Source of the DNA: Cytophagaceae bacterium
GTDB taxonomy: Bacteria > Bacteroidota > Bacteroidia > Cytophagales > Spirosomataceae
Reading direction: 5' to 3'
Assembly (NCBI GenBank): GCA_027491195.1
Contig: JAIXWQ010000009.1
Location: 310,001 to 374,000 of the forward strand
DNA length: 64,000 nt
The translations under genes were made by a program, and so were the position numbers. Below, in pieces: positions 23,103 to 61,435 of this stretch (positions are counted from its first letter, which is position 1; every line of letters begins with the position of its first letter). Under the pieces are notes generated by a model. The model made no database searches. It was not told the DNA's origin and saw only the letters and a program-made list of their open reading frames with translations.

Positions 23103-23696
23103 ATGAACAATACGACAACTATCCATATTTACACTGAATCGACCCCTAATCCACATTCCATGAAGTTCGTCTTCAATATGGAATTATTGCCGGAGGGAAT
23201 GTCATTCGATTACACCCAACCCGCAGACGGATTAACGAAAGAGAAAAACTCTCCTTTAGCCGTAGCCCTATTTGGATTTGATTTCGTTTCCCGCGTGTTC
23301 ATCACCAACAACTTCATCACTTTAACGAAAACCGAGTCAGTGGCTTGGGAAGATGAATTGTTCGGAATCAAAACTTACTTAAAGAAATATTTCGAAGAGA
23401 AACGTCCCGTTTTCTCTCTACCAGAAGCGACGATTGCAGATGATCAATCATCAGATACACCTGCCATCAAGCAAATCAAGCAAGCCTTAGACGAATATGT
23501 TCGTCCAGCCGTAGAATCCGATGGTGGTGCGATCACGTTCCACTCGTTTGACGAAGCATCTGGCCAAGTAAAAGTATTATTGCAAGGTTCTTGCTCTGGC
23601 TGTCCATCATCTACTATGACTTTAAAGCAAGGTATCGAGGCGCTATTAACGCGCATGGTGCCGGGTGTGAAGGAAGTGGTGGCGGAAGGGGTTTAA
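23103..23696 (+). CDS. Nfu-type iron-sulfur scaffold protein
   Basis: The protein has 197 aa. Residues about 5-90 form an Nfu N-terminal domain (TESTPNPHSMKFVFN is the family opening). Residues about 120-195 form a NifU C-terminal domain with the cluster-binding pair Cys-x-x-Cys in GSCSGCPSSTMTLK. Such proteins carry and deliver [4Fe-4S] clusters. The ATG at 23103 was chosen because the Nfu_N domain starts right after it. The stop codon lies inside a perfect 11-bp hairpin, and a heptamer repeat follows. Confidence 0.93.
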   Translation: MNNTTTIHIYTESTPNPHSMKFVFNMELLPEGMSFDYTQPADGLTKEKNSPLAVALFGFDFVSRVFITNNFITLTKTESVAWEDELFGIKTYLKKYFEEKRPVFSLPEATIADDQSSDTPAIKQIKQALDEYVRPAVESDGGAITFHSFDEASGQVKVLLQGSCSGCPSSTMTLKQGIEALLTRMVPGVKEVVAEGV

Positions 23697-23717
23697 AATT
23701 TCCGAAGGAAATTTTAA
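23693..23717. repeat. perfect 11-bp hairpin with GAA loop at the Nfu stop codon
   Basis: TTAAAATTTCC, loop GAA, then GGAAATTTTAA. The stop codon TAA (23694-23696) is part of the stem. There is no T tract, so it is not a standard terminator. It directly abuts the heptamer repeat at 23717. Confidence 0.9.
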
Positions 23718-23801
23718 GAGTAGAGAGTATAGACAAGAGAGTATAGATTATAGAGTAGAGGTTTTTTTTATCTCTTCTCTATACTCTCTAATCTCTACTC
23801 T
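23717..23801. repeat. inverted pair of 7-bp tandem repeats (AGAGTAG type)
   Basis: Left arm 23717-23758 is six heptamers: AGAGTAG, AGAGTAT, AGACAAG, AGAGTAT, AGATTAT, AGAGTAG. Right arm 23774-23801 is four heptamers on the other strand (CTTCTCT, ATACTCT, CTAATCT, CTACTCT). The two arms can pair over most of their length. The same unit occurs at 40555, 51013 and 55462. Confidence 0.85.
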
Positions 23802-23812
23802 TTTTTTCTTTT

Positions 23813-23961
23813 AAAGAATAGAGCATAAAGCACAAAGAATAAAGTTGGATTAAAAAAAGGGACCGAGGTCCCTTTTTTTATGTATTCAGAAATGATTTAA
23901 ACATTTCACGAAGGTTATCGCCGCAGGCGATGCCATCTTTATTCTTTGTGCTTTATTCTTT
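23813..23961. repeat. heptamer-armed hairpin element, copy A
   Basis: Left arm 23813-23847 has five heptamers (AAAGAAT, AGAGCAT, AAAGCAC, AAAGAAT, AAAGTTG). Right arm 23934-23961 has four inverted heptamers and reaches the stop codon of the HAD gene. Read on the minus strand the core has an ATCGCC/GGCGAT hairpin with a 3-base loop (23917-23931), nine bases, then GAAATGTTT (23899-23907). A terminator-like hairpin sits inside it. Confidence 0.85.
23852..23879. terminator. bidirectional intrinsic terminator between Nfu and HAD genes
   Basis: The stem GGGACC/GGTCCC is flanked by seven A and seven T, so it can act on both strands. It serves the two convergent genes and lies inside element copy A. 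Confidence 0.88.
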
Positions 23962-24651: not shown

Positions 24652-24800
24652 AAATAATAAAGCACAAAGCATAAAGTATAAAGTTCGTGTCGCCACAGGC
24701 GACGCGTATATGAAATGTTTTTGTACCATATTTCCTAAAACACAAAAATGGGGCCGAAGCCCCATTTTTAACCATCATTATTCTTTGTGCTTTAAATTTT
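24652..24800. repeat. heptamer-armed hairpin element, copy B
   Basis: Left arm 24652-24686 has five heptamers (AAATAAT, AAAGCAC, AAAGCAT, AAAGTAT, AAAGTTC). The hairpin GTCGCC, loop ACA, GGCGAC lies at 24689-24703. Eight bases later comes GAAATGTTT (24712-24720). A terminator sits at 24744-24769, and the right arm at 24773-24800 has inverted heptamers. The element fills the spacer between the tpiA 3' end and the HAD gene start. Confidence 0.85.
24744..24769 (-). terminator. intrinsic terminator after tpiA
   Basis: A perfect 11-bp stem AAAAATGGGGC/GCCCCATTTTT with a CGAA loop. On the minus strand it ends in five T, as needed for tpiA. Confidence 0.88.
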
Positions 24801-38304: not shown

Positions 38305-40560
38305 ATGGCTTCCCCTAAGGAACTGAAATTTTTGAGCGGCTTGAAGGCTGAGATTTTGGAGTTTTTTGAATTGAACGATTACCGTTCGTATTCACTGAAC
38401 CAATTACACAAAGCTTTTGCCATTCGCGATCGCAAGACGAAGGAGATTTATTCGGATTTAGTCGCGAAATTGATTGCAGAAAACCGCTTGATTAAGAATG
38501 AGGAGGGAAACGTGCGTTTTGACAACGAATCTTTCCAGGTAACGGGTCGCGTAGATCACGTGAATGCGCGTTTTGCCTTTGTGATTCCGGAGGATGGAGC
38601 GAAGGATATTTGGGTGGCGACAGGGGATTTGAATAATGCCAAAGACGGAGACAAAGTCATCGTCCAAGCCCGCAGACCTTCAGAAAAGAGAAAAAATGAC
38701 CGTCCGGAAGGAGAGGTCGTACAGATATTGGAACGTCGTTCCGCAGAATTAGTCGGTGTCATTCAGGTAACTCCACACTATTCCTTTTTAATCCCAGATT
38801 CGAAGAAAATCTACGAAGATGTCTACTTGCCGAAGTTCGAAATCAAGGACGCAAAGCACTTAGACAAAGTTATCGTCGAAGTTACACGCTGGGGTTCTGA
38901 CGGAAAAAAAGCCGAAGGCCGCGTTACGAAAGTCCTCGGAAAAGCCGGAGAGAACGACACCGAAATGCACTCGATTTTAGCCGAGTACGGTTTACCTTAC
39001 GACTTCCCAGAAGAAGTAGAAAAGGCCGCTGCCTCGATCTTAGTGCAGATTCCTGCTACTGAAATCAAGAAGCGCAAGGACATGCGCAACGTCTTAACTT
39101 TCACCATCGACCCGATCGATGCAAAGGATTTTGACGATGCGATTTCTTACCAAAAACTAAAGAACGGCAACACCGAAATCGGTGTCCACATAGCTGACGT
39201 TTCTCACTATGTGAAACCAGGATCGGTACTCGATATCGAAGCCTACAAGCGTGCTACCTCGGTTTACCTGGTGGATCGCGTGGTTCCCATGTTGCCAGAA
39301 AAGCTATCAAACGGACTTTGCTCCCTTCGTCCCAACGAAGATAAATTAACCTTTTCCGCCGTTTTCGAATTAGATGCGAACGACACCATTGTGAAAGAAT
39401 GGTTTGGCCGCACGGTCATTCATTCTGACCGCCGTTTTGCTTACGAGCAGGCACAAGAGTTGATTGAAAATGATTCAGACGATGCCTTAGTGCCGGTCAT
39501 TAGGGATTTGAACCGCATTGCCCAAATTTATAGAGCACGCCGTTTCGAACACGGTTCTGTGAACTTTGAAACAGCTGAAGTCCGCTTCGAACTAGACGAA
39601 GATGGAAAGCCAATCGGGGTATACCCTCGTATTCGCAAGGATGCGCATAAGTTGATTGAGGAGTTCATGCTTTTGGCAAATAAAAGAGTCGCGGAATTCG
39701 TCTTCAACAAGAAAAAGGACGAGCCTAAAAACACGATGGTGTACCGTATTCACGAAGCACCAGACCCGGAAAAATTGCAGGTATTCTCGTCCTTCGCGAA
39801 GAAATTCGGCTACCAAGTTACGACAGACCCGCAACACGTCAGCAAGTCATTCAATGCCTTGATGGAGAACATCGAAGGCAAAGGCGAAGAGCACGTTTTG
39901 CAGAGTTTAGCGGTTCGTACGATGTCCAAAGCCCGTTACAGCACCGATCCTGTCGGTCACTTCGGCTTGGCATTTCCGTTCTACTCGCACTTCACAAGTC
40001 CGATTCGCCGTTACCCAGACGTGATGACGCATCGCTTGTTGCAGCATTATTTAGACGGCGGCACTCCAGCCGAACGCGCACCTTTAGAAATTCAATGTAA
40101 GCACAGCTCTGATCGCGAAAAACTGGCATCTGATGCAGAACGCGCTTCCATCAAATACAAGCAGGTGGAATACATGAGCTTGCACGAGCCTCAAGTTTTC
40201 GATGGTATCATCACCGGCGTAACCGAATTCGGTATTTTCGTCGAAATCGGAGATACGTCTTGCGAAGGCCTTGTTCGAATGGTCGACTTGAATGACGACT
40301 TCTATGATTTAGATAAAAACAATTACCGCATCGTGGGTAAATCAAATGGACGTGTCTTCACTTTTGGAGATAAAGTTCAAGTGAAAGTCCGCGACACGAA
40401 CTTAGCAAAACGCACCATCGACCTCGAATTAGTGGGTATGCGTTCTGGCCTAGTAGGTAAATTCGCGAACAACCGTTCACGTAAGAGAGAGGCTCCGAGA
40501 GGTGGAAGAGTGATTCCGAAGGGGAAGGAGAGAGGAAGACGTACGGGAGGTAGGAGATAA
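38305..40560 (+). CDS. rnr: ribonuclease R
   Basis: This 751-aa 3'-5' exoribonuclease is of the RNB family. An N-terminal helix-turn-helix-like domain is followed by cold-shock domains. The RNB catalytic core has the Asp cluster in FTIDPIDAKDFDDAISY, and an S1 domain (FDGIITGVTEFGIFVEIG) follows near residue 635. The tail is strongly basic (RKREAPRGGRVIPKGK), as in other RNase R proteins, and helps with structured RNA. Its last codons and stop form the beginning of a 7-bp tandem repeat at 40555. Confidence 0.96.
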   Translation: MASPKELKFLSGLKAEILEFFELNDYRSYSLNQLHKAFAIRDRKTKEIYSDLVAKLIAENRLIKNEEGNVRFDNESFQVTGRVDHVNARFAFVIPEDGAKDIWVATGDLNNAKDGDKVIVQARRPSEKRKNDRPEGEVVQILERRSAELVGVIQVTPHYSFLIPDSKKIYEDVYLPKFEIKDAKHLDKVIVEVTRWGSDGKKAEGRVTKVLGKAGENDTEMHSILAEYGLPYDFPEEVEKAAASILVQIPATEIKKRKDMRNVLTFTIDPIDAKDFDDAISYQKLKNGNTEIGVHIADVSHYVKPGSVLDIEAYKRATSVYLVDRVVPMLPEKLSNGLCSLRPNEDKLTFSAVFELDANDTIVKEWFGRTVIHSDRRFAYEQAQELIENDSDDALVPVIRDLNRIAQIYRARRFEHGSVNFETAEVRFELDEDGKPIGVYPRIRKDAHKLIEEFMLLANKRVAEFVFNKKKDEPKNTMVYRIHEAPDPEKLQVFSSFAKKFGYQVTTDPQHVSKSFNALMENIEGKGEEHVLQSLAVRTMSKARYSTDPVGHFGLAFPFYSHFTSPIRRYPDVMTHRLLQHYLDGGTPAERAPLEIQCKHSSDREKLASDAERASIKYKQVEYMSLHEPQVFDGIITGVTEFGIFVEIGDTSCEGLVRMVDLNDDFYDLDKNNYRIVGKSNGRVFTFGDKVQVKVRDTNLAKRTIDLELVGMRSGLVGKFANNRSRKREAPRGGRVIPKGKERGRRTGGRR

Positions 40561-40596
40561 GAGATAAGAGATTATAGAGTATAGATTAGAGAGTAT
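40555..40596 (+). repeat. 7-bp tandem repeat (AGATAAG/AGAGTAT type) over the rnr stop
   Basis: Six heptamers in phase: AGATAAG, AGATAAG, AGATTAT, AGAGTAT, AGATTAG, AGAGTAT. The rnr stop codon (40558-40560) lies in the first unit. It marks the downstream edge of the defence island, and the mirror copy at 51013-51054 marks the other edge. Confidence 0.85.
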
Positions 40597-40606
40597 AGAT
40601 GTGGTA

Positions 40607-40640
40607 TTAAAAAAGGCTTCAGAATTGAAGCCTTTTTTAA
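40607..40640. terminator. bidirectional terminator between rnr and hsdR
   Basis: TTAAAAAAGGCTTC pairs with GAAGCCTTTTTTAA around AGAATT. T runs occur on both strands, so it serves the two convergent genes. Confidence 0.92.
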
Positions 40641-40651
40641 TAGAATCAGTA

Positions 40652-40686
40652 AACACTTGAGGTTCCAATTTGGAACCTCAAGTGTT
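40652..40686. repeat. perfect 16-bp hairpin with ATT loop at the hsdR 3' end
   Basis: AACACTTGAGGTTCCA, loop ATT, TGGAACCTCAAGTGTT. It ends one base before the hsdR stop triplet (40688-40690). There is no T tract. It could be a boundary scar, a recombination site or an mRNA-stabilising hairpin. Confidence 0.9.
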
Positions 40687-40687
40687 G

Positions 40688-43600
40688 TTAGGCATTTAAT
40701 CTTTGGTAAACCTTTTTCAACATATATCCTTTTACTAAACCTCCAAAATCTTTATCATCCATCATTTTTCCAAAGATGTCTTGGTTTTGCTCCATTCGGC
40801 TGATTAGTTTATCCATAAACACGTCATCGAATCCGAATTTGAAGTTCTCAATAGGATTATTTTTTGCCTGTTCTATTAGCTTTTGATCAAGGACCATATC
40901 CTCTTCAATTTGATCAAAGAATAATTTATCCGCGGTGTTAAATTCTGTTTGGAATTTCTTGTTTAGTACCTCGATGATTTCAGATAAATTTGCTTCATCT
41001 TCTTTGGATAAACGTAAACCAGCATCTCCTCCACCTCTTAATTCATAGACACTTTGGTTTTCCATTACGATACTATGGTCAGCGATTTTTTGCAAACGGT
41101 AATATTCTAAAGATACTTCATCGCCAAGCTTAAACTTATCATTTTGAGCAGTCCGCGGTAATTTTTTGTACAGAAATCTCGTGTAGGTAAATAGTTTCTC
41201 CAAGTCGACGTCAGAAAAAGGCATGATCTGAGTTAGAAAGGAATATGTCCTATTGAAACTTTGCAATGTGTTCTTAAAGTCCTCTTGAGTAACTTCGGTA
41301 CCCACGGTATTTTTATCAGAATTTTCTTCTGGCAATTGCTTAAATCGCTCAACTGCCGGATCTATGAAGGCATTCAATTTTCCTTGGTCAGAAATAGTCA
41401 ATGACTTAGCTGACTTAAAGTAAAGGTTGCAGAAGTTATTCACTTCTGACTCCCAGATCACTTTAGCTTTCTCGATCGCTGCTTTTAAGTCATATAAATA
41501 ATTCGGATCTGAATTTTCTTGAATTGAAGTCAGTTCATAATAGGGTTGAAACGACTCTAGAATTTCATCTGTTTCATTTGCAAAGTCTAACACAAATGTG
41601 TCATCTTTACCTGCACACATTCGATTTAATCTTGATAAAGTTTGAACCGCTTTTACTCCGGATAATTTTTTATCCACATACATGGTATGTAAAAGAGGCT
41701 GGTCAAAACCTGTTTGGTATTTGTCTGCTACTAAAAGCAACTGATATCCGTCTGAAGCAAATTTTCTAGGTAGTTCTTTTTCTGAAAAACCATTTAGTTC
41801 TACTTCTGTGACTCCTTCAGGAGCATTTGCATAAATTACTTTTCCGGAAAAAGCGACGATGGTTTTCACATCTTGATACCCCTTTTCTTTAATGTATTTA
41901 TCAAACTCTTCTTTATATCTTACCGCGTGTAATCGTGAACTTGAAACGACCATTGCTTTTGCTTTGCCACCAATTTTCTTCGATACGATTTGGCGAAAGT
42001 GTTCCACCATTACTTCTGTTTTCTGCGCTAAATTATGTGGATGCAATGACATGAAACGACCAATGGCGCGCGCTGCTTTTTTTCGATTAACCTTCGGGTC
42101 TTCTTCTATCTCTTTTGATAACTTGAAGTACGTTTTGTAGGTAGTATAGTTTTTCAATACGTCGAGAATAAAGCCTTCTTCGATGGCTTGCTTCATTGAG
42201 TATAAATGAAATGGTTGAGGCTTGCCGTTGGCGCCTTTTGTTCCAAAAACTTCAATTGTTTTAGGTTTTGGTGTCGCAGTGAAAGCGAAAAAACTCAAGT
42301 TAGTTTGCTTTCCTCTAGCTAACATGGATTTTCTGATTTCATCCTCTGCGTCTTCTTCTAAACCAGTATACGCTTCGTCCTTTTCCGCATCCTCTAACGA
42401 TTTTGCAGATAAAACCTCTTTCATTTTTTTGGTTGCTTCACCCCCTTGAGAACTATGTGCTTCATCTATAATGACGGCATATTTTCTTGCTGGAATTTCA
42501 CCAATCTTATCCAGAATAAAAGGGAACTTTTGAAGGGTGGTAATGATGATATTTGAACCTGTTGAAATAGCTGTGGCTAGTTGTGTCGAATCCTTATCAA
42601 TTTTTTGAACGACACCGTCTTTGTGTTCAAACTGAAAAATGGTTTGTTGCAATTGAGAGTCTAAAACCTTACGGTCTGTAATGACAATTACGGAATCGAA
42701 AATTCTATTATTGGAATCGTCGTGTAAGCTCGATAGCCGGTAAGATAACCAAGCAATCGAGTTTGATTTTCCTGAACCAGCTGAATGTTGAATCAAGTAA
42801 TTATGACCAGCTCCATTAAGTCTTGCGTCAGAAGTCACTTTACGGACAACTTGCATTTGATGGAAACGCGGAAAAATAATCGCCTCCTTCTTCTTTTTGA
42901 CACCATTTAATTCAAATTCTTCGACACTTAGATGAAGAAATTTGCCAATGATATCGATAAAGCTATCTCGGGCCCACACTTGCTCCCACAAATACGAGGT
43001 TCGGTATCCAGTAGGATTTGGCGGGTTGCCGGCGCCATTTTGATAACCTAAATTGAAGGGCAAATAGCGTGTTTTTTTACCGTCCAACTTCGTTGTCATA
43101 AATGCCTCGTCCGTATCTACTGCAAAATGAACAAGCGCTCTTTTTTTGAATTGGAAGATGGGCTCGCTAGGTTCTCGATCATATACGTATTGCTTTTTCG
43201 CATTTTCCACCGTTTGACCTGAAAACTGATTTTTGAGTTCAATCGTTGCGATGGGCAATCCATTTAAAGAAAGAACCATATCCAAGGAGTTCTTGCCATC
43301 ACGTTCATAATAGAGCTGCCTTGTAACCGATAAGTGATTCGTCTTATATTGTGCCTCTGCTTCTGGGTTCAATGAACTTTCAGGCTTAAAATAAGCCATA
43401 TAGAATTTTACGCCATAATCTGTAAAGCCCTTGCGGATAACATCAAGGGCTCCTCTTAAATCAATCTCTTTAACAAGGCGAAGAATTACTTTTTTCTCTG
43501 CCTCGTCCTTATGAATGGATTCAATTTTTGCCCAAGCTTTCGGCTGTGATAGTTTTAAAAAGTCAGTGATATACAAAGGGAATAATCCTTGTTTTACATC

Positions 43601-51012: not shown

Positions 51013-51054
51013 ACAATCTCTACTCTATAATCTCTTATCTATACTCTCTACTCT
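51013..51054 (-). repeat. 7-bp tandem repeat (AGAGTAG type) at the aldo/keto reductase stop
   Basis: On the minus strand, from the stop codon outward: AGAGTAG, AGAGTAT, AGATAAG, AGATTAT, AGAGTAG, AGATTGT, six heptamers in phase. The stop codon (51054-51056) is continuous with the repeat. It is the mirror partner of the 40555 repeat around the defence island. Confidence 0.85.
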
Positions 51055-54467: not shown

Positions 54468-55349
54468 ATGAGACAGGCTCCTAGGCTTCTCGACTATTTC
54501 AAGATTCACTTTATTGTGGTTTTATACGCGTTCACCGCTATTTTAGGGAACGCCACCCAGGCGAATACGCTAACGATTGTTTTCTTTCGCTGCGTCATTG
54601 CGGCGGCTGGTCTCGGTTTGATACTAGCTGCGGCTAAAAAGTCGTTTCGGGTGCCTACCTCTGTACTTAAAATCTGGTTGTTAAATGGGGCCTTTGTCGC
54701 CTTGCATTGGCTGCTGTTTTTTGGGGCCGCCAAAGTCTCTACGGTCGCGATGTGCCTCGCAGGTCTTTCCACCCAAACTTTTTGGACCTCCATTCTAGAA
54801 CCCATCGCTCAGAAAAAGCCTATCGCGAAGATCGAAGTCTTTCTGGGAATTCTGGTGGTGATTGCCTTAGGCATCATTTTCTCCGTCGAACCAGGTCAGT
54901 GGATTGGTTTGGTCATGGGTATTGGGGCCGGATTTTTCGGTGCTCTTTTCTCGGTGATTAATGGAAATTATACGCACACCCACGACCCTAAATTGATTAC
55001 CGTTTATGAGATGCTCGCGGCGGGTTTTATCACCGGGGCTGTCTGGTTATCCGGATTGTTAGGAGGCTCGCCGGGCTTTGTTCCAATCGGCCTGGATTGG
55101 CTCTGGATTGGTATTTTGGCCGTCGTTTGCACCGTTTACGCTTACACCGAGACCATCCATTTGTACAAGGTTTTCTCCGTCTTTTCGATCAATCTCGTGA
55201 TCACACTCGAACCCGTTTACGGAATTCTGTTAGCCGTTTTTATTTTTGGCCAAAAAGAAGTCATGCAACCCGCCTTCTACTGGGGAACGAGTCTGCTGGT
55301 GCTGACGGTGATGGCGCATCCGTTCTTGTCGCGGACTAAGAAAGAATAA
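54468..55349 (+). CDS. EamA/DMT family transporter
   Basis: This 293-aa inner-membrane protein has ten hydrophobic helices arranged as two EamA repeats of five. The first repeat has KIHFIVVLYAFTAILGNATQ and AKVSTVAMCLAGLSTQTFW, and the second has FSVFSINLVITLEPVYGILL. It is a drug/metabolite transporter superfamily member; the substrate is unknown. The last codons and the stop (AAAGAATAA) form the first AAAGNNN heptamer of element copy C. Confidence 0.88.
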   Translation: MRQAPRLLDYFKIHFIVVLYAFTAILGNATQANTLTIVFFRCVIAAAGLGLILAAAKKSFRVPTSVLKIWLLNGAFVALHWLLFFGAAKVSTVAMCLAGLSTQTFWTSILEPIAQKKPIAKIEVFLGILVVIALGIIFSVEPGQWIGLVMGIGAGFFGALFSVINGNYTHTHDPKLITVYEMLAAGFITGAVWLSGLLGGSPGFVPIGLDWLWIGILAVVCTVYAYTETIHLYKVFSVFSINLVITLEPVYGILLAVFIFGQKEVMQPAFYWGTSLLVLTVMAHPFLSRTKKE

Positions 55350-55461
55350 AGCACAAAGCACAAAGAATAAAGTAGGACTCCCCTGCGGGGATGAGTATTT
55401 GAAATGTTTCTTGTACGTTTCGCGAAGCGAATCCAACTTTATTCTTTGTGCTTTATTCTTT
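55341..55461. repeat. heptamer-armed hairpin element, copy C (best copy)
   Basis: The left arm 55341-55375 is AAAGAAT, AAAGCAC, AAAGCAC, AAAGAAT, AAAGTAG. The hairpin TCCCC, loop TGC, GGGGA is at 55379-55391. Nine bases later comes GAAATGTTT (55401-55409). A second hairpin, TTCGC, loop GAA, GCGAA, is at 55419-55431. The right arm 55434-55461 is four inverted heptamers. The EamA stop codon is in the left arm. Confidence 0.88.
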
Positions 55462-55496: not shown

Positions 55497-55562
55497 GAAT
55501 CAGGACAGCCGGGTAGATTTCTTCGATTATTTCTTTTATATTTAGCTGTTAAACTGAATTCT

Positions 55563-55667
55563 CCGGACTAAGTGACGTAGTCACGACTAAGTCCGAAGGA
55601 CGACTAAACGACAAAGTCGTGACTAGTCTAGCTGCGAAGCAGCGATGACCTCGCGACTTCGTCGCGA
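55563..55667. repeat. array of five short hairpins with 3-base loops
   Basis: GTGAC(GTA)GTCAC at 55572-55584, GTCC(GAA)GGAC at 55591-55601, ACGAC(AAA)GTCGT at 55608-55620, GCTGC(GAA)GCAGC at 55631-55643, TCGCGAC(TTC)GTCGCGA at 55651-55667. It lies in the 332-bp gene-free stretch 55350-55681 just upstream of the isomerase gene and contains no open frame. GAAATGAC directly follows the last stem, partly like the GAAATGTTT core. Confidence 0.85.
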
Positions 55668-55681
55668 AATGACCTAAACCT

Positions 55682-56509
55682 ATGAATCCAATCGCCATGA
55701 ATCTGCTCGTTTACGGGCCAGATATGAATGATACCGTGTTGTCTGAGCTTTCTTTCATACAGGAGGTCGGGTATCAAGGCGTTGAAATTCCAGTATTTAA
55801 TACCGATTTAGCGCATTGGTCTGCTTGGAAAAAGGAGGTCGATCGTTTGGGATTGCAACCATTCGCTTGTGCGATTGCGGGGCCTGCGGAGAATTTGATA
55901 TCTCCAGATCCAGCCGTTAGAGCGGCGGGGATTGCGTATTTGAAAGAAGCGGTGGATGTGGCAGCTTATTTAGGAGCACCTTATTTATCGGGCCCTTTTC
56001 ATTCAGCCTTAGGTGTTTTTACGGGGGCCAAAGCCACCCAACAAGAAATCGACTGGTCCATCGCCGGCATTCGGGAGGTAGCGGATCACGCAGCCACGAA
56101 AAACATCACCCTTTGTTTAGAATATTTAAACCGTTTCGAGAGCTATTTGGTCTCCTGTGCGGATGAATTATATGCCCTAGTCGAGCAGATTAATCACCCC
56201 TCTGTGGAGATTATGTTCGACACTTTTCATGCAAATATCGAGGAAGTGAGTACCGCGGATGCCATTCGTCGAATTGCGAAAAAGACCCCACACATTCAGC
56301 TGTCTGAAAGTACGCGGGGGATTTTGGGGGAAGGACAGGTGAACTGGCCGTCTGTTTTGCAGGCGATTAAGGAAGTAAATTATGGCGGCTGGTTAGTCGT
56401 GGAGGCCTTTAGCGAGAAATTGCCGGCGGCCCATATTTGGCGAAAAATGTTTAATTCAGAGCGCGAGCTCGTTGATAAATCCTTCAGATTTATCCATGGT
56501 AAATGGTAA
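55682..56509 (+). CDS. sugar phosphate isomerase/epimerase (AP-endonuclease-2-like)
   Basis: This 275-aa (beta/alpha)8 protein is of the xylose-isomerase-like family. Metal-site motifs are seen as LCLEYLNRFES, EIMFDTFHANIEE, HIQLSES and the late LVVEAFSEK. Many members act as sugar 3-epimerases or isomerases in oxidised-sugar pathways. It is followed after 38 bp by a Gfo/Idh/MocA oxidoreductase, which supports such a pathway. The end of the gene is a 7-bp tandem repeat (GGTAAAT type) that includes the stop codon. Confidence 0.9.
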   Translation: MNPIAMNLLVYGPDMNDTVLSELSFIQEVGYQGVEIPVFNTDLAHWSAWKKEVDRLGLQPFACAIAGPAENLISPDPAVRAAGIAYLKEAVDVAAYLGAPYLSGPFHSALGVFTGAKATQQEIDWSIAGIREVADHAATKNITLCLEYLNRFESYLVSCADELYALVEQINHPSVEIMFDTFHANIEEVSTADAIRRIAKKTPHIQLSESTRGILGEGQVNWPSVLQAIKEVNYGGWLVVEAFSEKLPAAHIWRKMFNSERELVDKSFRFIHGKW

Positions 56510-56525
56510 GTGGTGAATGGTAAAT
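56498..56525 (+). repeat. 7-bp tandem repeat GGTAAAT over the isomerase stop codon
   Basis: Four heptamers in phase: GGTAAAT, GGTAAGT, GGTGAAT, GGTAAAT. The stop codon is within the second unit. It has the same period and position as the AGAGTAG and AAAGNNN repeats but a different unit. Confidence 0.85.
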
Positions 56526-56547
56526 GAATGTTGAAATCTTTTAAACT

Positions 56548-60600: not shown

Positions 60601-61269
60601 TTAGGTTCGTATATCGTGGAGAAAACCTTCCGCGGCATGACCTCAGATGACTCCGCTAACGACATCGTTGCTTTATTGCGCTCGATCAAACAAGTGGCTA
60701 GTCCTACGATGGGCGCTGCCTTGAAAGGGGCCTCTGCAACTTGGAATGCGAAACGTGCCGCTGATTTATCAGCTGACAATGTGGACTTCTTGAAAGGCTT
60801 AGGCAAGCAATTACGTCCGCAAGATGTGGAGGCATATGAGCGCTTGGCGGGACTTTGGAAAGTAGAAATACCTTCAGCTGAAGTGAAAGGGGTAGTCGTG
60901 AAACGCACGATTATGACGATCAAAGAGGCGATGAAATACAGCCCAGCCGAATTCACCGTACCAGCTGGTGCGACAGTTGAATTGATCTTCGAAAACGTCG
61001 ATGCGATGCAACACAACTGGGTTTTAGGCACATTAGGTAGCCAAGAAAAAATCGGTTTAGCCGCAGACAAAATGATCACCGCAGCCGATGGCGCAGCGAA
61101 AAACTACATCCCTGCGATGCCAGAAGTGTTAGCTTACACACCATTAGTGGAATCCGATGGCCGTGTGAAAGTGGTCTTCAAAGCACCAAGCGTTCCAGGC
61201 AATTATCCGTTCTTGTGTACCTTCCCAGGGCACTGGAGGATTATGAATGGCATTATGAAAGTTGAATAA
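57664..61269 (+). CDS. ThuA / PVC-type dehydrogenase / HEAT / CARDB / cupredoxin fusion
   Basis: The protein has 1201 aa and a signal peptide (MRFLLFAAAFLFQFSVSA). Domains in order: ThuA-like (about 22-235, LELLFLGDKGHHK and GHGLVAIHCASF); a six-bladed beta-propeller of the membrane-bound dehydrogenase type (about 265-660); HEAT-like helices (about 665-800); a CARDB-like adhesion domain (about 850-980); and a C-terminal cupredoxin (about 1075-1201). The cupredoxin has an intact type-1 copper site: His in MQHNWVLG and Cys/His/Met in CTFPGHWRIM. There is no CXXCH heme motif. A secreted sugar oxidase delivering electrons to copper is the best inference. The gene ends in a 23-bp hairpin. Confidence 0.88.
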   Translation: MRFLLFAAAFLFQFSVSAAPGRRLELLFLGDKGHHKPFDRYPALQSAVGIKGMNITYTESLKDLNEAYLNKFDALVIYANHDSIAAPQEKALLNYVASGHGLVAIHCASFNFRNSKEFVKMVGGQFWRHGMDSIRVKNEANTYVKIKTVDETYLHSQLQPDNQIWQSRILGPEQAKDKPGATTEPYTWTRTYGKGNVFYTAYGHDEHTWETEGFQDLVTQGILHAVGAEKRALLTALNLPVLKYREAKLPNYEKREGAQLQQLPLSPEESVKFIQVPVDFNLQVFASEPNVMHPIAMAWDERGRLYVLITKDYPNERKETGGSDYILLCEDTNNDGKADKFTKWADGLSIPTGMVFANGGLIISQAPHMILLKDTNGDDKADEKKILFTGFGTGDTHAGPSNLHYGFDNWIWGCVGYSGYKGKVGADSLQFAQAFFRFKPDGSKMEHMTTTSNNTWGFDFNEAGDVFGSTANNAHGWYMAIPHRNIWHAPMTLNGSKNTDTHKDMRTITKKVRQVDVFGGFTAAAGHNFYSARSFPKEYWNQIAFVSEPTGHVIHQNRQVPTGSDFNDKEAFNFLAGADEWISPVFAQVGPDGAVWVADWYSYIIQHNPVPQGFKNGGGNAYDTDLRDFTHGRIYRVGYNKAPAYTPVSLKTPAECIAALSNSNLFWRLNAQRLLVERGNKDVVPALVALIGSAKTDEIGLAPGAIHALRTLEGLGVLPMDVLARAMKHSSAAVRKQAVQVLPRTAASAKLILDQKMLNDKDSLVVLHSILALIESPTSPAVEAAMARKIAVSAKTTDRWIPDALAAYVMAGGPARRATFIAKQGAKSGAVVAEKLAKEAKNPSTTGTESGLDLVVEEVQIKGGNFRLREGASFVIRVKNRGDKALPKGTPLPLTVKIEGMGRRTDLESYTFTDGAAPGETVSVVKNNNGPWTGNLGWTADEAGNYVMEINLDTKAVLGESNRTNNTFRQPIVVTLPADLGSYIVEKTFRGMTSDDSANDIVALLRSIKQVASPTMGAALKGASATWNAKRAADLSADNVDFLKGLGKQLRPQDVEAYERLAGLWKVEIPSAEVKGVVVKRTIMTIKEAMKYSPAEFTVPAGATVELIFENVDAMQHNWVLGTLGSQEKIGLAADKMITAADGAAKNYIPAMPEVLAYTPLVESDGRVKVVFKAPSVPGNYPFLCTFPGHWRIMNGIMKVE

Positions 61270-61299
61270 TGCGGAGCATTATTCAACTTTCATAATGCT
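61249..61299. repeat. 23-bp perfect hairpin over the 1201-aa gene stop codon
   Basis: Bases 61250-61272 pair perfectly with 61276-61298 around GGA, with a G-T pair outside. The left arm is the last codons plus the TAA stop. There is no T tract, so it is not a standard terminator. It looks like the gene's end has been copied in inverse orientation across a 3-base loop. Confidence 0.92.
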
Positions 61300-61300
61300 C

Positions 61301-61435
61301 AAAGCACAAAGAACAAAGCAAAAAGAATAAAGTAGGATGTTGCTTCGCAACGATTCGTGAAATGTTTTTGACAAAGTCCGGACGACGACGAAATTCAATC
61401 AATATCTATTCTTTGTGCTTTATTCTTTGTGCTTT
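61301..61435. repeat. heptamer-armed hairpin element, copy D
   Basis: The left arm 61301-61335 is AAAGCAC, AAAGAAC, AAAGCAA, AAAGAAT, AAAGTAG. The hairpin GTTGC, loop TTC, GCAAC is at 61339-61351. Seven bases later comes GAAATGTTT (61359-61367). The right arm 61408-61435 is four inverted heptamers and ends six bases before the tgt promoter box. Confidence 0.87.

Follow-up and report, generated by a model that had tools for sequence, protein, structure and literature searches.

The spacer behind the open reading frame at 54468-55349 raises the question of whether the repeat found there is a selected nucleic acid structure, a mobile DNA element, or both. The first-pass annotation of the window, by which we mean the whole 64,000-nucleotide stretch analysed here, had described four copies of one intergenic design (23813-23961 in reverse, 24652-24800, 55341-55461 and 61301-61435; copies A, B, C and D, respectively), and had proposed either a selected structure or a non-autonomous mobile element. 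All four copies were present at these coordinates. The invariant motif GAAATGTTT occurred 6 times in the window compared with 1.5 expected, a count that none of 100 shuffles reached, and 4 of these 6 occurrences fell inside the four copies. Likewise, the pattern AAAGN3AAAGN3AAAG, with up to one mismatch allowed, gave 25 matches versus 1.2 expected. The host genome (G000), that of a freshwater bacterium, is an Aquirufa genome of 2.49 Mb from the A. antheringensis clade. The window corresponds to G000:C3:310001-374000, and the protein of the HAD gene between copies A and B is 92-94% identical to those of relatives (Aquirufa near A. antheringensis). Note that we use "dialect" for the type of 7-base word that makes up the arm arrays; the dialect of the window copies is AAAGHAY.

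In copy C, the left arm (55341-55372, plus strand; sequence and AAAG pattern count) consists of five AAAG units in exact 7-bp phase and overlaps the stop codon of the reading frame at 54468-55349. It is followed by the triloop hairpin TCCCC-TGC-GGGGA (55379-55391, plus strand), assigned by covariation and RNA folding, and by the conserved GAAATGTTT at the element centre (55401-55409, plus strand). RNA folding revealed a second hairpin, TTCGC-GAA-GCGAA (55419-55431, plus strand), which belongs to an inverted half-site and was absent from the first-pass annotation; the right arm lies at 55437-55461 on the minus strand. In all copies, arms were located by AAAG pattern counts, GAAATGTTT by motif counts and the first hairpin by covariation. 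Copy B has its left arm at 24652-24683 (plus strand, also in the site catalogue), 11 bp upstream of the start codon of the minus-strand HAD gene, then the hairpin GTCGCC-ACA-GGCGAC (24689-24703, plus strand), GAAATGTTT (24712-24720, plus strand), a terminator-like hairpin AAAAATGGGGC-CGAA-GCCCCATTTTT in the second slot (24744-24769, plus strand; sequence and RNA fold) and the right arm (24776-24800, minus strand). Copy D is composed of the left arm (61301-61332), the hairpin GTTGC-TTC-GCAAC (61339-61351) and GAAATGTTT (61359-61367), all on the plus strand, and the right arm (61407-61435, minus strand). In the reversed copy A, the arm at the HAD gene stop codon (23937-23961), the hairpin ATCGCC-TGC-GGCGAT (23917-23931) and GAAATGTTT (23899-23907), which pairs with CATTTC as a central hairpin in the RNA fold, are on the minus strand, and the second arm (23813-23844, plus strand) includes one AGAG unit. 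Between them, sequence and RNA folding show a bidirectional terminator-like hairpin, AAAAAAAGGGACC/GGTCCCTTTTTTT (23852-23879), and in relatives the same slot of the orthologous element carries a stem with altered sequence. Next to copy A lies an inverted array of the sister dialect AGAGTAD (23717-23801), recognised from sequence.

The window holds further repeats of related kinds. A triloop hairpin array at 55562-55672 has GACTAA/TTAGTC spacers, the dialect of a further PF05635 gene in the genome (L267; this family is introduced below), and a heptamer array at 56495-56535 is of the ATGGTRA dialect, whose corresponding PF05635 gene lies at G000:C6:70883. A one-sided AGAGTAD array is placed between a stop codon and an intrinsic terminator at about 51013-51053; the same site in the relative G001 has AAAGHAY and AGAGTAD arrays in tandem. 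Immediately before copy D, at 61250-61298, the 3' end of a gene is followed by its own perfect inverted copy (GCATTATGAAAGTTGAATAATGC GGA GCATTATTCAACTTTCATAATGC), with 23-bp arms and a 3-nt loop. Similar gene-end palindromes with 3-nt loops occur near 23694-23718 in the window and at L002, L007 and L009; fold-back DNA synthesis is a possible origin of this type.

Each half-element follows one order, namely 4-5 heptamers, WNGGNAT, a 5-6-bp stem with a 3-nt loop, 7-8 nt and GAAATGTTT. The second half is the inverse of the first, and its hairpin slot holds either a short GC stem or an A-tract/stem/T-tract hairpin, the second hairpins of copies A and B being terminator-like stems. The covariation first noticed in four stems was borne out across 24 half-sites, where 97% of cells were paired, 4 of the 6 stem pairs varied on both sides and 20 cells had changed on both sides (0 of 500 shuffles), supporting selection on the structure. 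The four copies had RNA fold z-scores of −5.5 to −11.4. The stretch once described as 35-75 variable bases does lie between GAAATGTTT and the inverted heptamers, but within it are the second hairpin and, for most copies, a GAAATG...CATTTC-like dyad at the centre. The element is therefore better regarded as two inverted half-sites with a cloverleaf-like fold in the single strand. Most arms had four or five units, as had been stated, and five was the mode. At the three free bases, left arms matched their own right arms no better than the arms of other elements (permutation p = 0.44); thus, the arms look like word arrays rather than a maintained perfect stem, and element-specific pairing between left and right arms was unsupported. 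The arms, rather than the hairpin, are the widely shared part, and they exist in many dialects.

The design is dispersed far beyond the window. The strict pattern of arm plus GAAATGTTT was found 9 times genome-wide and AAAGHAYAAAGHAYAAAG, that is AAAGHAY in threes, 174 times, with no matches for either reversed-pattern control. AAAGHAY arrays occupied about 54 sites, most of them in inverted pairs spaced by about 100-150 bp, confirming that the four window copies belong to a larger set. With a half-site model, the family was detected in 10 of the 38 Aquirufa genomes searched, and the remaining 28 gave no match. The elements are strongly biased toward gene ends and convergent spacers: 34 of 53 AAAGHAY sites lay between convergent genes, 16 between co-directional genes and 3 between divergent genes, while the convergent baseline was 7 of 52 (p = 2e-17), and the arm edge often overlapped a stop codon. 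In addition, A-tract/stem/T-tract hairpins resembling intrinsic terminators were present in 21 of 54 elements versus 10 of 400 random segments.

At one orthologous site in G001, CAAAG arms enclose a gene for a four-helix-bundle protein, and this led to a search for the family PF05635. PF05635/TIGR02436 is the four-helix-bundle family of the 23S-rRNA intervening-sequence protein (23S-IVP), with the Avd proteins of diversity-generating retroelements (DGRs) as relatives; to our knowledge, this common family has no known function beyond its name and its likeness to Avd. Between one and four PF05635 genes were present in each of 28 of the 38 Aquirufa genomes. In the window's own genome, a gene for a 117-aa protein (L020:1619-1972, about G000:C3:177015-177368) was identified by profile search (TIGR02436, E = 1e-24, 86.9 bits with a cut-off of 24; PF05635, E = 3.7e-22, 79.0 bits with a cut-off of 33.8), and it is enclosed by two complete AAAGHAY elements in direct orientation. 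An automatic test found period-7/14 arrays on both sides of 37 of 50 Aquirufa PF05635 loci. Of the remaining 13, 11 had AGTCC..GGACT or TAGTC..GACTA repeats (hairpin- or 14/15-bp-type) in opposite orientation on each side, and 2 were cut or masked. Nearly all 50 genes sit between inverted arrays of their own dialect.

Dialect and protein also vary together. On a tree of the 50 PF05635 proteins, the 13 dialects required 12 changes, the minimum possible, compared with a shuffled mean of 37.9, although the dialect labels were set by visual reading of the DNA flanks, and plain orthology accounts for part of the clustering. Each dialect has one protein clade, and sister proteins have similar words beside them. 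Moreover, one dialect reaches its highest abundance where its own PF05635 gene is present: CAAAGWBC was counted 108, 92, 80 and 41 times in the four genomes with a CAAAG-flanked gene, 4 and 1 times in the near-complete carriers G000 and G012, and 0-1 times in the 28 non-carriers. Note that four incomplete MAGs had 11-49 CAAAG matches with no CAAAG gene detected, and G001 has 44 AAAGHAY-type half-sites with no matching PF05635 gene, indicating that the coupling of dialect and gene is not strict. The hemE-engB (ysxC) spacer carries a PF05635 cassette in many Aquirufa species, with differing protein clades and dialects (L238-L253), and MAG G009 shows two cassette types there, perhaps strain variants. 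The upstream flanks of several Aquirufa PF05635 genes (L238, L258, L270 and L285-L287) have in common a TGATAA...TTATCA dyad, placed between the gene and its left array.

Orthologous spacers in two close relatives were usually still filled with arrays of other dialects, namely CAAAGTT/CAAAGAG in G001 and AGAGTAD or ATGGTRA in G012, or with TTAGTC arrays and triloop hairpins. At window positions 40545-40700, for example, the hairpin core is orthologous to that of G001, whose arm is of the AAAGHAY dialect, whereas the window arm is an AGAGTAD array (40545-40600, plus strand). Such swaps were seen at about 20 compared orthologous sites among closely related species, and the sister dialects AAAGHAY, AGAGTAD and CAAAGNN have the inner half-site in common; sister dialects repeatedly supplant each other at the same sites. 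Where the window has one element at the copy A site, G001 has two direct-repeat elements around a two-gene insert of about 2 kb (C2, about 253.6-255.9 kb; L177), as if the elements also served as places of gene gain. A different palindrome, AACCTTGACAGCGTTTGGAACGCTGTCAAGGTTAACGA, occupies the same two spacers in more distant Aquirufa (L069 and L070).

The pairing of PF05635 genes with arrays extends beyond Aquirufa. Of 296 Bacteroidota genomes sampled, 235 had PF05635, compared with 0 of 14 control genomes. Among the 30 best PF05635 loci from Bacteroidota, 11 had period-7 arrays on both sides and 19 on one side or both; the corresponding counts for 51 HAD-gene controls were 0 and 5. About one-third of the loci in this phylum-wide sample had no clear period-7 array on either side, and a few had period 8 or 16. 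For plasmid-borne genes, examined at 27 loci from Cyanobacteriota, Chloroflexota, Bacteroidota, Spirochaetota, Gemmatimonadota and Pseudomonadota, period-7 arrays were found on both sides at 20 loci and period 8 at 3, with no both-side arrays at the control periods 5, 6, 9 and 11; at the same threshold, no array was present in 100 kb of sequence taken from cyanobacterial plasmids at a distance from such a gene. Individual loci with period 8 or 16 in place of 7 include L338, L339, L344, L290, L306 and L309. Some cyanobacterial units lie between cas genes, that is cas2/cas1, cas6/cas4 and cas10/cmr3 (L318, L320, L335, L337 and L338). A search of phages with a PF05635 protein gave one weak match. 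Taken together, several independent tests show that PF05635 genes are coupled to inverted heptamer arrays.

Of three joined-flank searches for empty sites, two returned other spacers and the third gave one clean empty site. On a plasmid of Nostoc edaphicum, a 492-bp array-PF05635-array unit separates nrdB from nrdA, and at the matching position of a Calothrix NIES-4105 plasmid about 13 bp stand in its place, with both flanks aligned. The array-gene-array segment is thus present or absent as a unit, indicating that the arms delimit it. This filled/empty pair is a single, unpolarised case that fits insertion as well as precise deletion, and no target-site duplication was evident at it.

On this evidence, the four copies are probably dispersed, non-autonomous members of a PF05635-linked repeat class that has inverted arrays of 7-bp words as its ends. 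Both proposals of the first-pass annotation, structure and mobile element, thereby gain support, from the covariation, the roughly 54 sites, the restriction to one clade, the array-gene-array unit and the empty site, while the parallel it drew with REP elements fails, as described below. The reading we favour, with good though not full confidence, is a mobile repeat system in which the PF05635 protein recognises its own heptamer arms. Recognition of its own dialect is suggested by the co-variation of protein and word, by the five chains in each of the related PDB entries 2rld and 2gsc, the latter being the PF05635 protein XCC0516 of Xanthomonas campestris ATCC 33913, and by the modal five units; a role in spreading the elements is suggested by their dispersal, clade restriction and turnover, and by the empty site. 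In the mechanism we propose from sequence comparison, the protein would bind its dialect with roughly one heptamer to each subunit, which would account for five being the commonest number of units in an arm, and by this binding would help to copy or move the DNA bounded by the arrays. The chemistry would be left to host enzymes, since the gene-carrying unit has no recognisable gene for a nuclease, a transposase or a reverse transcriptase, and we know of no catalytic site in the PF05635 family. Copies may then survive at gene ends because their hairpins and A-rich/T-rich arms act as bidirectional terminators or as 3' end protection.

The main rival is a regulatory role. In this view the arrays work in RNA at 3' ends, either as bidirectional terminators or as 3' protectors of mRNA, PF05635 proteins are the RNA-binding regulators that recognise them, and the arrays beside a PF05635 gene serve its autoregulation. 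The convergent placement at stop codons, the 21 terminator-like hairpins, the covarying stems, and the five-chain entries and modal five units, which would suit a ring-like RNA binder, all agree with it. However, a regulon would have difficulty surviving dialect swaps at about 20 orthologous sites; PF05635 genes appear and vanish together with their arms, and arrays also flank plasmid PF05635 genes amid unrelated genes. We consider this account as a whole unlikely, although it deserves to be kept in mind, and both roles may hold. A clearly less probable account is that arrays arise by replication slippage and are targets into which PF05635 genes insert, rather than ends. Gene-free arrays at many sites are in line with it, slippage has been proposed for heptamers (PMC4692102), and MacGregor saw changes in 7-nt steps (PMC4679880). 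On the other hand, the empty nrdB-nrdA site has no array, dialect tracks protein clade even at the shared hemE-engB locus, and slippage leaves the inverted arms, the shared core and the same words at dozens of sites unexplained. Spread as REP/REPIN elements by a RAYT (Y1/HUH transposase), to which the paired inverted hairpins at gene ends and the GTAG string in copies C and D had pointed, can be set aside almost entirely, because Y1_Tnp (PF01797) was missing from every one of the 10 carrier genomes, G000 (98% complete) and G001 (99% complete) among them, though it was present in 12 of 28 non-carriers, and GTAG is the AAAG|TAGG arm junction, replaced by AAAGTTGG, AAAGATGG or AAAGATTG in half-sites that lack this junction.

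If a PF05635 protein indeed moves DNA while itself lacking a catalytic domain, repeats would have a new way of spreading; if its role is regulatory, PF05635 would be a word-specific RNA- or DNA-binding family that offers a natural specificity panel. Heptamer repeats in cyanobacteria, Xanthomonas, Beggiatoaceae and Bacteroidota lack an agreed origin, which the pairing could explain, and by joining them with PF05635, two open questions become a single testable system in which a protein family varies together with the adjacent DNA word. We found no earlier report linking PF05635 with heptamer repeats in the open-licence literature. The most general form of the proposal, for which we see about even chances, is that heptanucleotide repeats across bacteria (cyanobacterial STRRs, TAACTGA, GGGNATC and the Bacteroidota arrays) are the recognition ends of one widespread and so far overlooked mobile class run by PF05635, whose pentameric bundle would read about one word per subunit and spread its dialect without an encoded transposase.

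Among known systems, REPIN-RAYT is similar in its short, paired inverted, non-autonomous elements dispersed at gene ends, in its gene flanked by copies of its own repeat and in its lineage-specific repeat types. It differs in that the partner here is a four-helix-bundle PF05635 protein lacking an HUH/Y1 domain, a 7-bp array takes the place of the recognition-like part, a genus has many dialects, and the system occurs in at least six phyla. MITEs are likewise short non-autonomous units with inverted ends and high copy number, whereas the present elements have array ends, no clear target-site duplication at the one empty site and a partner without a transposase; no transposase-encoding element sharing the inverted ends was found, and the gene-carrying members encode PF05635 only. 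The 23S rRNA IVS is an insert bounded by inverted repeats that holds a PF05635 (S23 protein) gene and resembles our units in this respect, but the copies and PF05635 loci described here lie between protein genes and have heptamer arrays as ends. DGRs are related through Avd, to which PF05635 has been likened (PMC10053308), while RVT_1 is absent from the repeat-carrying G001, so that a resident reverse transcriptase was rejected as a necessary partner; neither a reverse transcriptase nor a Y1 transposase was found in every carrier. The arrays themselves resemble heptanucleotide repeats, which are known from Beggiatoaceae (TAACTGA), Cyanobacteria and some Bacteroidetes (PMC4679880), and as GGGNATC from Xanthomonas and Nostoc, with 70 inverted pairs in X. 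campestris (PMC4692102). AAAGHAY arrays share the STRR-like features of tandem 7-bp units, intergenic position and many loci, and both groups consist of degenerate 7-bp words in exact phase that are species-specific and partly arranged as inverted pairs. Whereas those two reports, in the parts consulted, describe arrays alone, the arrays reported here come with a partner gene, an inverted array-gene-array unit and a hairpin core.
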